Below, piece after piece: positions 7,039-52,638 of a DNA stretch of 64,000 nt (the stretch's first letter is position 1; each line of letters opens with the position of its first letter). Origin of the DNA: Rhodopseudomonas palustris HaA2 (GTDB lineage Bacteria > Pseudomonadota > Alphaproteobacteria > Rhizobiales > Xanthobacteraceae). The stretch lies in contig NC_007778.1 in NCBI RefSeq assembly GCF_000013365.1, positions 682,001-746,000 of the forward strand. The letters are read 5' to 3'. Both the position numbers and the translations under genes were made by a program. The notes under the pieces are model-generated. The model ran no database searches and had not been told where the DNA came from. It was given only the letters and a program-made list of their open reading frames with translations.

Positions 7039-7064
7039 GCGTGGGTGGGTATCGAACTAACGCC

Positions 7065-7250
7065 GTGCCCGCGGCGCCCTCACCCCCGCCCTCTCCCGCA
7101 AGCGGGAGAGGGCGCGCGCCGCGGCCGTTGCGCCGCGTCGCCTAACTCATCAACGTCAGAAGCAGAGGTGTGGCCCCACCCCGACCGCCGCCGGACTCCC
7201 TCTCCCGCTTGCGGGAGAGGGCTGGGGTGAGGGTGAGCCGAGCACGGCGC
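7065..7250. repeat. Paired palindromic repeat, family A (copy 1)
   Basis: Two GC-rich palindromes, CTCTCCCGC joined by AA or TT to GCGGGAGAG, lie in inverted orientation at 7089-7112 and 7198-7221. Each carries a tail of the GGGGTGAGGG type that points outward, and the ends GCCGTGCCCG and CGAGCACGGC are near-complementary. The 80-base centre is unrelated to other copies. Similar units recur at 11221, 13269, 15941 and 34254. Confidence 0.85.
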
Positions 7251-7346
7251 CAATGACGAGTTGCGTAAGGTGGGCAAAGGCGCGCAGCGCCGTGCCTACG
7301 CGGACTCGTCGCGTCTGCTTTCGATCGGCGCCGCAACTCATCCGCC

Positions 7347-8349: not shown

Positions 8350-8505
8350 CTCCCTCGCCCCGCTCTTGCGGGGAGAGGGTTGGGGTGAGGGGCTCTCCGG
8401 CCCGCGACTGCTGCTGGCGAGGTGAGGGCAGTGCCCGGCCCCTCACCCGACCTTCGCGCTGGCGCGCCAAGGTCGACCTCTCCCCGCGCAGGGCGGGGAG
8501 AGGTT
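8350..8505. repeat. Paired palindromic repeat, inward-tailed type, between fabB and fabI
   Basis: Left arm: a palindrome built on CCCCGCTCTTGCGGGG followed by GGTTGGGGTGAGGGG. Right arm: the mirrored tail CCCCTCACCC, an extra hairpin (GACCTT/AAGGTC), then a second palindrome. Unlike copy 1, the tails point toward each other, the same arrangement as in the DUF559 cassette at 51272-51730 but with no gene inside. Confidence 0.75.
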
Positions 8506-11220: not shown

Positions 11221-11410
11221 GCCCCCACCCCAACCCTCCCCCGCAAGAGCGGGAGAGGGAGCGCGCCGTGCGCGTTGCCGCGTGTGGAGGTCGCCGCGAG
11301 TCGCAGCCTGCTCCCTCTCCCGCTTGCGGGAGAGGGCCGGGGTGAGGTCGCCGCGAGTCGCAGCCCGCTCCCTCTCCCGCTTGCGGGAGAGGGGTGGGGT
11401 GAGGGCGACG
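11221..11410. repeat. Family A palindromic repeats, three copies including a 57-bp tandem duplication
   Basis: The interval between irr and the SH3-domain gene holds one copy in one orientation (11221-11277) and two copies in the other (from about 11288 and 11345). The latter two repeat the same 57 bases, including GGTCGCCGCGAGTCGCAGCC and the palindrome. A third partial start of the unit appears near 11404. No gene is supported between 11084 and 11438. Confidence 0.8.
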
Positions 11411-11438: not shown

Positions 11439-11963
11439 TCACTTCACCTGCTCGTCGGCGTAGACGCCCCACAGCCGCTGCTTCTCGATCCAGCCGTCGA
11501 AACCCTGGCCGGCGATCCGGCACCAGACCGCGTCGCAGCGCTTGATCTGCGCCACCACGCCGGCCTGCAGCCGCGCCGCCACCGCGCTGTCGGTCGAGGC
11601 GCTCTCATACAGCGTCGCCAGCTCGTCCTTGTCCTTCATGGTGATCACCGCGGTGCGGCGGCCGGACAGCAGCGAGTGATACACCCAGCCCTCGGCGCCT
11701 TCCGAATCGCGCACCCGCCGCCAGTTCTCGAACTCGGCGGTGATCTCCACCGGCAGCCCGGCGCGGGTGTAGACCCAGGCGACGTCGTTGTCCTTGGTCG
11801 GGCCGATCCGGACGTTGACGTGATCCGACTTGAGACTGACGTAGCGCGGCACCGGCAGGCCGCTGGTCGACAGCGGCGAATCCTTCGCAGCGAATGACGG
11901 CGCCGCCACACCTACCATCGCACCTGCGAACAACAATCCTGCGATCGGTTTCGTCAGCTTCAT
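11439..11963 (-). CDS. Exported bacterial SH3-domain protein
   Basis: A 174-residue protein with a signal peptide (MKLTKPIAGLLFAGAMVGVA, cleavage after PSFAA) and an SH3-like region of the SH3_4 type (about residues 35-100: VNVRIGPTKDNDVAWVYTRA, then GWVYHSLLSG). A second SH3-like segment follows (about 115-165, ending GWIEKQRLWGVY). Such domains usually bind cell-wall or protein ligands in the periplasm; the partner cannot be read from the sequence. The start at 11963 is supported by GGAG seven bases upstream; the longer upstream frame lacks a signal. It is divergent from the 2-hydroxyacid dehydrogenase gene. Confidence 0.85.
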   Translation of the reverse strand: MKLTKPIAGLLFAGAMVGVAAPSFAAKDSPLSTSGLPVPRYVSLKSDHVNVRIGPTKDNDVAWVYTRAGLPVEITAEFENWRRVRDSEGAEGWVYHSLLSGRRTAVITMKDKDELATLYESASTDSAVAARLQAGVVAQIKRCDAVWCRIAGQGFDGWIEKQRLWGVYADEQVK

Positions 11964-13268: not shown

Positions 13269-13431
13269 CCGTGCCCGCGAGCCCTCACCCCAACCCTCTC
13301 CCGCAAGCGGGCGAGGGGGCTCGCCGTGCGCGTTGCTGAGTTTGAGACTGAACAAAACCATTCGAACCGCATGCGGCCGGACTCCCTCTCCCGCCTGCGG
13401 GAGAGGGCTGGGGTGAGGGCGACGCGGGCAG
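13269..13431. repeat. Paired palindromic repeat, family A
   Basis: Two inverted palindromes (around 13294-13318 and 13383-13407), each with outward CCCTCACCCC or GGGGTGAGGG tails, as in the copy at 7065. Termini GCCGTGCCCGCG and CGACGCGGGC again mirror each other. It fills the space between the convergent dehydrogenase and moeB-like genes. Confidence 0.8.
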
Positions 13432-15940: not shown

Positions 15941-16137
15941 GCGCCGTGCCCGCGTCGCCCTCACCCCACCCCTCTCCCGCAAGCGGGAGAGAGAGTCCGG
16001 CCGCATCGCGGGGCGACTTATGAGAATGATCTCGATCGCTATTGGTGTTTGATGCAGGGCCTTACCCCGCGCACGGCGAGCCCCCTCTCCCGCTTGCGGG
16101 AGAGGGTTGGGGTGAGGGCGAGCCGAGCACGGCGCCG
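15941..16137. repeat. Paired palindromic repeat, family A
   Basis: Two inverted copies of the CTCTCCCGC/GCGGGAGAG palindrome with outward tails, framed by GGCGCCGTGCCCGCG and its near mirror CGAGCACGGCGCC. It occupies the space between the convergent protease-like gene and mutM. Confidence 0.82.
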
Positions 16138-34253: not shown

Positions 34254-34330
34254 GCCGTGCCCGCGTCGCCCTCACCCTAGCCCTCTCCCGCAAGCGGGAG
34301 AGGGTTGGGGTGAGGGCGCCACGAGCACAG
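34254..34330. repeat. Family A palindromic repeat, single-hairpin form
   Basis: One CTCTCCCGCAAGCGGGAGAG palindrome carries mirrored tails on both sides (CCCTCACCCTAG and GGTTGGGGTGAGGG). It looks like a paired copy whose centre has been lost. It lies between trxA and the convergent phosphoesterase gene. Confidence 0.8.
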
Positions 34331-48115: not shown

Positions 48116-48300
48116 TCCCCTCTCCCGCTTGCGGGGGAGGGCTAGGGTGGGGGCGACGCGGGCACGGGCTTCGCGCATCGAAGCATCAGTCAAGGCGACG
48201 CGGTGACAAGCGGCCAGGCGCACAATCGCGTGCGCACTGCCTGTCGCGCCCCCACCCCAACCCTCCCCCGCAAGAGCGGGAGAGGGAGCTCGCCGTGCAT
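48116..48300. repeat. Paired palindromic repeat, inward-tailed type
   Basis: Left arm CCCTCTCCCGCTTGCGGGGG with tail GGCTAGGGTGGGGGCG. Right arm has the tail GCGCCCCCACCCCAACCC and then the mirror palindrome. The tails point inward across an 80-base centre, as in the DUF559 cassette at 51272-51730. It lies between tRNA-Ala and the CoA-transferase gene; no gene is supported from 48017 to 48402. Confidence 0.78.
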
Positions 48301-49906: not shown

Positions 49907-51232
49907 ATGACTTTTCGTTTGAAAGCTCTGACCGCTGCGATGGCGACGACGATCGCCGCCACGCTGCTGATCGCGCCGGCGCAGGCGGCGACCGAGATCC
50001 AGTGGTGGCACGCCATGACCGGCGGCAACAACGATGTCGTGGTCAAGCTCGCCAACGACTTCAACGCCGCGCAGAGCGACTACAAGGTCGTCCCGACCTA
50101 CAAGGGCAGCTACGCCGACACCATGAACGCCGGCATCGCGGCGTTCCGCGCCGGCAACGCCCCGCACATCATGCAGGTGTTCGAGGTCGGCACCGCCACC
50201 ATGATGGCGGCGACCGGCGCGGTGAAGCCGGTCTACAAGCTGATGCAGGAGACCGGCGAGACATTCGATCCCAACGCCTACCTGCCGGCGATCACCGGCT
50301 ACTACTCGACCTCCAAGGGCGAGATGCTGTCGTTCCCGTTCAACTCGTCCTCGACGGTGATGTGGGTCAATCTCGACGCGCTCAAGAAGGCCGGGATCGC
50401 CGAAGTTCCGAAGACCTGGCCGCAGGTGTTCGAGGATGCCAAGAAGCTGAAGGCGGCCGGCTACGCCACCTGCGGCTTCTCCACCGCCTGGGTCACTTGG
50501 GTCAATCTCGAGCAGCTCTCCGCCTGGCACAATGTACCGCTGGCCAGCAAGGCCAACGGCCTCGACGGCTTCGACACCAAGCTGGAGTTCAACGGCCCGG
50601 TGCAGGTCAAGCATCTGGAGACGCTGATCGAGCTGCAGAAGGACAAGACCTACGATTATTCCGGCCGCACCAACACCGGCGAGGGCCGCTTCACCTCCGG
50701 CGAGTGCCCGATCTTCCTGACCTCGTCGGGTTTCTTCGGCAACGTCAAGTCTCAGGCCAAGTTCGCCTGGACCAACGCGCCGATGCCGTACTACCCGGAC
50801 GTTGCCGGCGCGCCGCAGAATTCGATCATCGGCGGCGCCTCGCTGTGGGTGATGGGCGGCAAGAGCGCCGACGAATACAAGGGCGTCGCCAAGTTCCTCG
50901 CCTTCCTGTCCGACACCGACCGTCAGGTCGCGGTGCACAAGGCGTCGGGCTATCTGCCGATCACCAAGGCGGCCTACGAGAAGGCCAAGGCCGACGGCTT
51001 CTACAACGACCAGCCCTATCTCGAGACCCCGATCAAGGAACTGACCAACAAGCCGCCGACCGAGAATTCCCGCGGCCTGCGGCTCGGCAACATGGTTCAG
51101 CTCCGCGACGTCTGGGCCGAGGAAATCGAGCAGGCGCTGGCCGGCAAGAAGACCGCCAAGGAAGCGTTGGATGCAGCCGTCACCCGCGGCAACGTGATGC
51201 TGCGGCAGTTCGAAAAGACCGCGGTGAAGTAA
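49907..51232 (+). CDS. ugpB: sn-glycerol-3-phosphate ABC transporter substrate-binding protein UgpB
   Basis: A 441-residue periplasmic protein with a signal peptide (ending APAQA) and family features IQWWHAMTGGNND, FPFNSSSTVMWVN and GGASLWVMGGKS. It captures glycerol-3-phosphate or glycerophosphodiesters for UgpAEC. GGGAGG precedes the start. The next transporter gene is 524 bases away because a small DUF559 cassette is inserted between them. Confidence 0.95.
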   Translation: MTFRLKALTAAMATTIAATLLIAPAQAATEIQWWHAMTGGNNDVVVKLANDFNAAQSDYKVVPTYKGSYADTMNAGIAAFRAGNAPHIMQVFEVGTATMMAATGAVKPVYKLMQETGETFDPNAYLPAITGYYSTSKGEMLSFPFNSSSTVMWVNLDALKKAGIAEVPKTWPQVFEDAKKLKAAGYATCGFSTAWVTWVNLEQLSAWHNVPLASKANGLDGFDTKLEFNGPVQVKHLETLIELQKDKTYDYSGRTNTGEGRFTSGECPIFLTSSGFFGNVKSQAKFAWTNAPMPYYPDVAGAPQNSIIGGASLWVMGGKSADEYKGVAKFLAFLSDTDRQVAVHKASGYLPITKAAYEKAKADGFYNDQPYLETPIKELTNKPPTENSRGLRLGNMVQLRDVWAEEIEQALAGKKTAKEALDAAVTRGNVMLRQFEKTAVK

Positions 51233-51271
51233 GCACTCCGCAACCTGCACCACCGTCATGGGTGGGCTCTT

Positions 51272-51730
51272 CTCCCCTCCCCCCGCTCTTGCGGCGGGGA
51301 GGGGTCGGGGGTGGGGGGTGCCCCAGGCACGAACGCTGATGGCACGCACAGTCGACCAGCGGATCCAACGAGCCCGGAGTTTCCGTCGAAATCCGACGGA
51401 CGCCGAGCGCAAGCTGTGGCAGCGCCTGCGTCGACCGGGCTTTGCCGAGGCCCATTTCCGCCGGCAAGCGACGATCGGCCCATACTTTGCGGACTTTGCC
51501 TGCCATGCCCTCCGACTGGTCATCGAAATCGACGGAGGCCAGCACGCCGGATCGAACTCCGACGTCGTTCGAACGGGCTATCTCGAGGCCGCGGGCTATC
51601 GCGTGCTCAGGTTCTGGAATAACGATGTTCTGAACAACATCGACGGCGTCATGCAGATCATCGTAGACGCCGTGCGCGCGGCGCCCCCCACCCCCGACCC
51701 CTCCCCGCCGCAAGAGCGGGGGGAGGGGAG
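51272..51730. mobile_element. DUF559 cassette with 47-bp perfect inverted ends
   Basis: A 459-bp unit whose ends, 51272-51318 and 51684-51730, are exact reverse complements over 47 bases. Each end itself contains a palindrome (CCCCGCTCTTGCGGCGGGG) plus a GGGGTCGGGGGTGGGGGG tail. The only gene inside encodes a DUF559 protein. The unit splits ugpB from ugpA. No target-site duplication is evident. Arms resemble the gene-less repeats at 8350-8505 and 48116-48300, which have the same inward-facing tails. Confidence 0.7.
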
Positions 51731-51734
51731 CTGA
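51339..51734 (+). CDS. DUF559 protein (Vsr-like endonuclease fold)
   Basis: A 131-residue protein starting [19 protein letters not shown]. The DUF559 core follows: [32 protein letters not shown] and [13 protein letters not shown], then [15 protein letters not shown]. The Asp of ADF, the Glu-Ile-Asp and the GGQH sequence fit a PD-(D/E)XK-type catalytic site related to very-short-patch-repair endonucleases; activity is not demonstrated for this family to my knowledge. The last 16 or so residues ([16 protein letters not shown]) are encoded by the right inverted repeat, so the stop lies four bases past it. It interrupts the ugp operon in the same orientation. Confidence 0.85.
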
Positions 51735-51756: not shown

Positions 51757-52638
51757 ATGCTGAAGAACGCCGTCTTTCAATCCAAATTCCTGCCCTATTG
51801 GCTGGTGCTGCCGCAGCTCGCGGTGGTGCTGGTGTTCTTCTATTGGCCGGCGCTGCAGGCAGTGGCGCAGTCGTTCCTGCTGCAGGATGCGTTCGGGCTG
51901 TCGACCACTTTCGTCTGGTTCGAGAATTACCAGGAGCTGCTGGCCGACCCGGACTACTTCAGCGCCATCCTGCGCACCTTCGTGTTTTCGGTCCTGATCG
52001 CGGTGTCGTCGCTGTCGCTGGCGCTGCTGCTGGCGGTGATGGCCGACCGGCCGCTGCGCGGCTCGATGTTCTATCGCACCCTGCTGATCTGGCCCTACGC
52101 GGTGGCGCCGCCGGTGGTCGGCGTGCTGTGGATCTTCATGCTCAACCCCTCGCTCGGCGTGATCGCCCACGGCCTGCGCGCGATCGGCGTCGACTGGAAC
52201 CCGCTGCTCGACGGCAACCAGGCCGCGACGCTGATCATCCTCGCCGCGGCGTGGAAGCAGATCTCCTACAATTTCCTGTTCTTCCTCGCCGGGCTGCAGG
52301 CGATCCCGGGAAGCGTCATCGAGGCGGCGGCGATCGACGGCGCGCGGCCGATGCGGCGGTTCTGGACCATCGTGTTCCCGCTGCTGTCGCCGACGATCTT
52401 CTTCCTGATCGTCGTCAACATCGTCTACGCCTTCTTCGAAACCTTCGGCATCATCGACACCATGACCCGCGGCGGCCCGGCCAAGGCCACCGAGACGCTG
52501 GTCTACAAGGTCTACAGCGACGGCCTGCTCGGCGGCAATCTCGGCAGCTCGGCGGCGCAGTCGGTGATCCTGATGGGCATCGTCATCGCGCTCACCGCGT
52601 TCCAGTTCCGCTTCGTCGAACGCAAGGTGAACTACTGA
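51757..52638 (+). CDS. ugpA: Glycerol-3-phosphate ABC transporter permease UgpA
   Basis: A 293-residue inner-membrane permease with about six transmembrane helices (the first [19 protein letters not shown]). The EAA loop that contacts the ATPase is [20 protein letters not shown]. Its stop codon shares one base with the ugpE start. The preceding DUF559 cassette ends 26 bases upstream, so transcription from the ugpB promoter must cross it. Confidence 0.95.

Follow-up and report, generated by a model that had tools for sequence, protein, structure and literature searches.

What is a small nuclease gene with perfectly inverted ends doing between two transport genes of Rhodopseudomonas palustris HaA2? 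The gene lies between ugpB and ugpA in a 64,000-nucleotide stretch of this genome (NC_007778.1, positions 682,001 to 746,000; hereafter the window, whose own numbering is used). It encodes a protein of the DUF559 family and forms, with one inverted arm on each side, a 459-bp cassette. A first-pass annotation, made from the letters alone, had read this segment as a self-contained selfish or mobile unit with the logic of repetitive extragenic palindromic (REP) elements and REP-associated tyrosine transposases (RAYTs), but with a different protein. Sequence, block copying and cassette replacement lend support to that reading, which had not recognised that the arms fall into a described repeat class, BoxC/PIT/TM. 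In our assessment, the cassette is probably a selfish unit in which the DUF559 protein would be the dedicated nuclease of BoxC/PIT-type triplex repeats, with the paired repeats as its ends.

Triplex repeats have been known in E. coli since the 1990s and have stayed unexplained. The accessible text of Holder et al. (2015; PMC4666352) reports the BoxC/PIT/TM motif from more than 260 genomes, with 23 copies in E. coli MG1655. The E. coli motif folds as a triplex in vitro, and no stable triplex was found in vivo. According to the same text, the motif has no link to flanking genes and no mobile-element activity nearby, and PIT/BoxC elements have neither promoter nor terminator activity. Words beginning with ‘ycjD’, ‘DUF’ or ‘nuclease’ do not occur in the portion of the paper available.

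The inverted ends of the ugp cassette are exact as claimed. Positions 51272-51318 are the reverse complement of 51684-51730 in 47 of 47 letters, and on extension the arms reach 60 nt at 93% identity. Each arm is a hairpin with an appendage, in the order pyrimidine strand, loop, purine strand, short linker and purine tag. The tag usually lies towards the gene and repeats the purine strand of the stem in mirror order, reversed but not complemented. In the left arm (51272..51318, plus strand), the hairpin occupies 51274-51304 with the stem CCCCTCCCC / GGGGAGGGG, and the mirror tag GGGGGTGGGGGG follows at 51307-51318. The right arm (51684..51730, minus strand), the exact reverse complement, has its tag at 51684-51695 and its hairpin at 51698-51728; a motif scan finds the two arms at 51275-51316 and 51686-51727. 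The arms had also been called palindromic; their hairpins fold at -21.9 and -21.2 kcal/mol, a stability reached by none of 200 dinucleotide shuffles. The DUF559 (PF04480) gene (51339..51734, plus strand) encodes a Vsr-like PD-(D/E)XK nuclease of 131 aa from the ATG at 51339; an alternative in-frame ATG at 51258 gives 158 aa and reads across the left arm. The right arm encodes the final ~18 residues of the protein. At 51684-51734, arm sequence in translation thus forms the protein tail, a likely origin of spurious protein ends in the annotation of GC-rich genomes.

The match to PF04480 (122.7 bits, curated cut-off 20.6; E 7.6e-36) agrees with the annotated single small gene with a Vsr-like nuclease fold. 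The protein has a restriction-enzyme-like fold with a conserved acidic/His site. It also matches MTES_1575, below the cut-off, and has no Y1_Tnp match. Its sequence similarity to the homing endonuclease I-Bth0305I (3r3p), which we take to represent the EDxHD family, reaches E 0.53, and the catalytic fold is homologous. The E. coli relative YcjD had been assigned to the PD-(D/E)XK superfamily by 2005 (PMC1189080, as far as its text was available), and the accessible text of PMC12907096 describes Caulobacter VsrA as a DUF559 protein linked to DNA damage, cytosine methylation and SOS. A search for a defence role gave weak PADLOC matches only. Relatives of the ugp protein are rare in plasmid records (44/72,556; 36 of the 44 typed non-mobilizable, many megabase-sized), and DUF559 occurs in 3 of 50,697 phage records. 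Two of these three phage loci were inspected and lack hairpin arms of this type; the inverted-repeat score of 16 at L274 comes from an A/T-rich match (genomes and loci are given here by G and L numbers).

Whether DUF559 genes in general carry such arms, a point raised by the first-pass annotation, was examined genome-wide and beyond. The HaA2 genome has seven DUF559 genes. Six of them (frames of 123-200 residues) lie between paired inverted arms that match exactly over 22-47 nt and differ in sequence from pair to pair; the seventh, a 419-residue frame, has none. Across 16 genomes of the genus, which hold 2 to 9 DUF559 matches each at about ten sites, arms were present at 58/61 single-domain loci (local inverted-repeat score at least 16). 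This count leaves out the long-frame gene of HaA2, other long-frame or partial matches lie outside the sample, the loci without arms are L238, L243 and L244, and the score of L016 is inflated by a contig fold-back. In a wider sample, arms were found at 119/170 loci against 1/337 control windows 1 kb away (3 of 173 loci were dropped for short flanks): 33/34 in the own genome and genus, 16/30 and 23/38 in the class, and 15/28 and 32/40 in the phylum. These loci were top-scoring matches plus a hand-picked spread rather than randomly drawn. In another 80 named loci, 3 of which were dropped for short flanks, arms were present at 59/77 against 0/286 control windows, or at 57/73 without four loci sampled earlier. 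Among plasmid-collection loci, 5/9 reached the arm threshold. Those below it are E. coli ycjD, a Neisseria gene and two cyanobacterial genes, most of which show single or degenerate arms. Chance or base composition as the source of the arms is ruled out by the control windows, by cross-locus pairs and by the tag swaps described below.

The tag follows the stem as a mirror. Mirror and direct copy can be told apart only where a stem differs from its own mirror image. With trimmed stems, the mirror was the better match in 60 arms and the direct copy in 9 (38 ties, 107 arms), or 38 to 6 per locus (19 ties). When tags were swapped among loci, the own mirror match was reached in 0/1000 swaps and the own direct match in 687/1000. 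The named loci gave 45 to 4 (20 ties, 69 arms), with 0/1000 and 405/1000 swaps, and 42 to 4 (20 ties, 66 arms) without four overlapping loci. An earlier count with untrimmed stems was 56 to 14 (51 ties, 121 arms); all later figures use trimmed stems. The tag as a direct copy, which would make it an alternative hairpin partner, was ruled out because the own direct match equals the swapped one. The mirror match is 0.80 on the gene side versus 0.62 on the outer side. In aligned arms with at most 2 mirror mismatches, a G of the mirrored stem is met by G in the tag in 625/633 places and an A by A or T in 141/144; the A-to-T place is widely shared among arms, and related loci are not independent. 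This pairing corresponds to the code of the purine-motif triplex (G.GC, A.AT, T.AT; available text of PMC4666352), and by their sequence the arms belong to the BoxC/PIT/TM class of predicted intrastrand-triplex repeats. Rfam returned four matches, none near the gathering score of its family. Nuclease and arm also vary together. At non-orthologous sites, the similarity of nucleases correlated with that of arms in 57 of the 61 genus loci (Mantel r 0.24, 0/2000) and in 76 wider loci (r 0.20, 0/2000); loci scoring too low for arms, or whose arms reached 75 or 80 nt, were left out.

Paired motifs in turn predict DUF559. A protein-blind scan for inward-facing pairs of strict triplex motifs, with a spacing of 200-1000 bp and a loop limit of 14, covered 1.46 Mb (464 kb of the own genome, 800 kb of the alphaproteobacterium G027 and 200 kb of relatives). 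The stretches were picked to contain known DUF559 genes, so the scan tests specificity and not overall frequency. Of 12 inward pairs found, 11 enclose DUF559. The twelfth, L425:11750-12605 in G027, is a gene-less twin with a 259-bp interior, 18 bp from an intact cassette with similar arms, and resembles a non-autonomous derivative. A narrower first scan (loops of at most 12 nt, gaps of 250-900) had missed the window cassette and gave no inward pair in the window or its relatives; the limits were then widened. A relaxed scan recovered 6/6 DUF559 domains in the own-genome stretches with zero false pairs, and gave one or two extra pairs enclosing other DNA within the 800 kb from G027, where 5/6 DUF559 domains lie within inward pairs. 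With narrower settings (250-900 bp), 40/40 inward pairs around the named loci contain DUF559, in two cases a second gene other than the query.

Repeats are also associated with the gene at the genome level. The commonest arm type of the own genome, that of a cassette site termed site 0, is present in 108 copies (control 1). Around the 100 copies listed of these 108, the sole inward pair within 1.5 kb contains a DUF559 gene, and the 12 pairs of neighbouring arms no more than 250 bp apart include 7 with outward tags and 0 with inward tags. At least 10 copies of GGGAGAGGGNNGGGGTGAGGG (one mismatch allowed) occur in 21/289 alphaproteobacterial genomes. A strong DUF559 match (E 1e-20 or better) was present in 19/21 repeat-rich genomes versus 67/289 overall (odds ratio 43, p 1e-11), in 17/18 repeat-rich genomes of at least 3 Mb and in 37/57 genomes with at least one copy; cassette arms contribute a few copies in DUF559-rich genomes. 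Genomes with at least 4 copies and no strong DUF559 are G026, G057, G159, G217, G218, G245 (fragments only) and G246. For Y1_Tnp no association with repeat number was seen (5/21 vs 58/289, p 0.58), and PF01797 may miss divergent RAYTs. HaA2 itself has 0 PF01797 matches; since a RAYT-like gene of a relative falls below the model cut-off, divergent RAYTs are possible there. Repeats driven by RAYTs are therefore rejected only weakly. Within the genus, the repeat numbers 11 copies in G003, 18 in G001, 40 in G005 and 40-148 in the other 13 genomes. The prediction of few repeats without the site-0 cassette was thus borne out in part, in a pattern that equally fits other sites.

The host genes of the ugp cassette are a ugpB-like gene upstream (49907..51232, plus strand) and a ugpA-like permease gene downstream (51757..52638, plus strand), both named after the first-pass annotation; the latter anchored the junction in relatives. 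Among the 16 genus genomes, the junction holds the cassette in 7, gene-less palindromes in 5 and a 74-bp spacer in 2, and a contig ends there in 2. The statement that ugpB and ugpA normally abut is only partly right: the two most distant genomes have just the short spacer, whereas 7/16 have the cassette and 5/16 other palindromes; junctions lacking the cassette, a proposed check, do exist. G009 is counted with the cassette although its contig stops before ugpB. Its inverted cassette was discarded as evidence of movement because the contig ends in a fold-back. The five ugp-gap palindromes resemble CGTC-tagged REPs by eye. In its own genome, the ugp arm core matches its two arms and one further place with 2 mismatches. 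The ugp copy itself gives the impression of long residence at a single site with losses, not of a recent jump.

Evidence for movement comes from other copies, as judged by their sequences. Twenty same-genome cassette pairs in 16 genomes were compared, and in 4 the likeness spans both arms and the gene while the flanks are unrelated (G201, 79% over 676 bp; G480, 86% over 589 bp; G289, 74%; G106, 66%). In three of the alike pairs, similarity ends at the outer hairpin base or at most ~17 nt from it. Between glyQ and glyS, Rhodopseudomonas species carry one of two unrelated cassettes, with proteins down to 46-47% identical, and several of these sites show by eye arm relics of the alternative type beside the resident one. 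Site 0 holds a cassette in 14/16 species, of one type in 13 and of a different type (39-44% identical) in G001. Three Deinococcus species carry DUF559 on plasmids (L267, L268, L272) in different gaps of the hpa operon, antisense, with triplex arms and tags outward. By sequence, gene and arms are copied and replaced together, as a unit whose limits fall at the hairpin bases or close to them. The glyQ-glyS gap was rejected as a clean empty site: it measures 1287 bp in G001 and G003, and in G003 it holds another gene, presumably Fic-like by motif. Several side observations concern other settings. In G480, a lone gene-less arm (L154:2600-2750) is 97% identical to the arms of two nearby cassettes. 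On a plasmid of Synechocystis sp. B12 (L270), DUF559 lies beside a BREX PglX gene, and in Picosynechococcus (L271) beside a DUF1156 gene; these two loci show C/G hairpins of a different type or hairpin arms that have degenerated.

Gene-less repeats elsewhere in the window had been said to resemble the ugp arms. They share the arm design, but apart from the 2-mismatch match the ugp core is not repeated in the genome. Units with two arms and tags outward have their cores at 7077..7233 (missing at the same place in G012, with a 62-bp gap), 13282..13419 (in G012, not G010) and 15958..16118 (in G010, doubled in G012, missing in G005 with a 32-bp gap), and one with tags inward at 48133..48269; these units, like the three-arm unit at 11222..11405 and the single hairpin with a tag on each side at 34269..34316, have no assigned strand. 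A single arm at 8371..8391 (plus strand) is missing at the same place in G010 and G012. The gene-less units thus vary between close species. The orthologous counterpart of window ~7040-7255 in G010 (L357 ~11527-11899) contains GTAG-type repeats and a RAYT-like gene, whose Y1_Tnp match (E 0.0018) stays below the cut-off, where the window has its gene-less triplex unit; one intergenic place is occupied by different repeat systems.

In E. coli, the DUF559 gene ycjD lies ~370 bp before fabI, with a BoxC-class motif between them. Genomes with this motif (5357 of 5426) hold it at a median of 14 places. According to the accessible text of PMC12817139, the place between sapF and fabI is taken either by ycjD or by an efflux operon. 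In a comparison of L366 and L368, the strain with the longer ycjD end has a more intact right arm plus tag, and K-12 apparently lacks ~12 nt. We lean, on balance, towards the broader view that a transposon-like class driven by DUF559 nucleases may have BoxC/PIT repeats as its ends and as its gene-less offspring. This class would extend over Pseudomonadota, Deinococcota and probably other phyla, and ycjD would be a resident member in decay.

How might such a unit move? PD-(D/E)XK enzymes do not rejoin DNA themselves, so joining would be left to the host. An arm that becomes single-stranded during replication or repair would fold as a hairpin plus third strand, the Vsr-like DUF559 enzyme would cut at the folded arm, and host repair would copy the cassette, or gene-less arms, into the break. 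Cut-and-repair fits better than a DDE transposase, since the enzyme's fold is related to that of a homing endonuclease and no target duplication is visible. An enzyme able to damage cellular DNA fits what the available text of PMC12907096 reports of Caulobacter VsrA. We consider mobility of the cassette likely. Several observations weigh against this account. No paired arms were detectable at 51/170 and 18/77 DUF559 loci and at 4/9 plasmid-collection loci, and related genomes and loci enter the tallies as non-independent. By eye, target-site duplication was not apparent at the ends of three copy pairs, and among close relatives none supplied a clean empty site for any insertion. Repeats occur without the gene (35 copies in G057, 12 in G159), genomes without the usual site-0 cassette still carry 11-40 copies, and the ugp arms have no gene-less copies. 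In E. coli, ycjD was found in 3365 of 5426 genomes and the arms in 5357.

The repeats could be host elements or independent selfish elements that spread otherwise, or by replication slippage, with DUF559 settling beside them or hitch-hiking. Repeats without a strong DUF559 in G057, G159 and others, their persistence in ycjD-less E. coli, and the roughly one-third of wider-sample loci without paired arms would suit this; the pairing, inversion and locus specificity of the arms, their covariation with the protein, the near-exclusive DUF559 content of inward pairs and the copies stopping at or near hairpin bases do not, and we consider it unlikely. Slightly less credible still is a host maintenance nuclease, acting in Vsr-like repair or in triplex or hairpin removal, with arms kept by selection as control or binding sites. 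The Vsr-like fold and the one-type site 0 cassette in 13 of the 14 species that have one there are in its favour, and VsrA, tied in the accessible text of PMC12907096 to DNA damage, cytosine methylation and SOS, makes a host role possible. Two to nine genes per genome at about ten sites, swaps at one site and same-genome copies with unrelated flanks fit mobility better, and the available text of PMC4666352 reports no promoter or terminator activity for PIT/BoxC.

The structure recognised might also be a G-quadruplex, the mirror look being a by-product of four G runs, as in GGGAGAGGG..GGGGTGAGGGG. This is the least probable alternative: in asymmetric stems, for example GGGGGAAGG / GGATGGGGG and GGGAGAAGG / GGATGAGGG, the mirror order is preserved although three G are not present in every run, and tag swaps reached the mirror match in 0/1000 cases versus 687 and 405 of 1000 for the direct match. 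A homing variant is a real possibility, if a less favoured one, and comes close behind the favoured reading. The nuclease would cut gene-less arms and homologous repair would copy the cassette in, as for an intron-less homing endonuclease. Cassettes carry their tags inward, whereas 7 of 12 neighbouring gene-less pairs have them outward and 0 inward; most gene-less pairs are therefore something other than plain empty sites. The selfish cassette with triplex ends cut by its own DUF559 nuclease remains the reading we prefer.

If it is correct, the cassette would be a new kind of selfish DNA, combining a non-transposase enzyme with a non-B-DNA end, and may account for the instability of repeat sites and provide a biological setting for triplex DNA in cells. 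It names a candidate partner enzyme, from a family still of ‘unknown function’, for orphan triplex repeats to which the available text of PMC4666352 tied no protein, and opens the question to tests in E. coli K-12 and Rhodopseudomonas. Among the papers listed by searches of the open-access literature, with subscription papers and preprints outside the scope, none linking DUF559 with these repeats was found. The cassette would be the first mobile system known to us with ends defined by a DNA triplex.

Among known systems, REP/RAYT (REPIN) elements share with the cassette a small nuclease gene, inverted hairpin repeats and gene-less repeats of the same design elsewhere. They differ in having an HuH Y1 enzyme and GTAG-tagged repeats, where here a PD-(D/E)XK enzyme is combined with triplex arms that carry a mirror purine tag and no GTAG. 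Their spread of gene-less repeats is paralleled by the site-0 arm type and not by the ugp arms. The cassette would work like REP/RAYT and is not a member, with an unrelated enzyme and another repeat. Compared with EDxHD homing endonucleases, no intron or intein was seen here and the ends are inverted and structured; cassette turnover fits self-copying into a target, but no clean empty target was present among the sites examined. From Vsr and Caulobacter VsrA the ugp protein stands apart, with only 16 bits to the vsr model and transport genes as neighbours in the window. The CGTC-tagged REPs of PMC3733652 look like the ugp-gap palindromes of other species; their sequence differs from the DUF559 arms, and the accessible text reports them without a transposase partner. 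BoxC/PIT/TM repeats come closest, being intergenic, multi-copy and widespread, with a purine-strand hairpin and a mirror third strand. In the available text of PMC4666352 they are described as orphan repeats, whereas here they stand as a pair at the ends of DUF559 genes. Repeat class and protein family were known separately; their pairing appears to be new.
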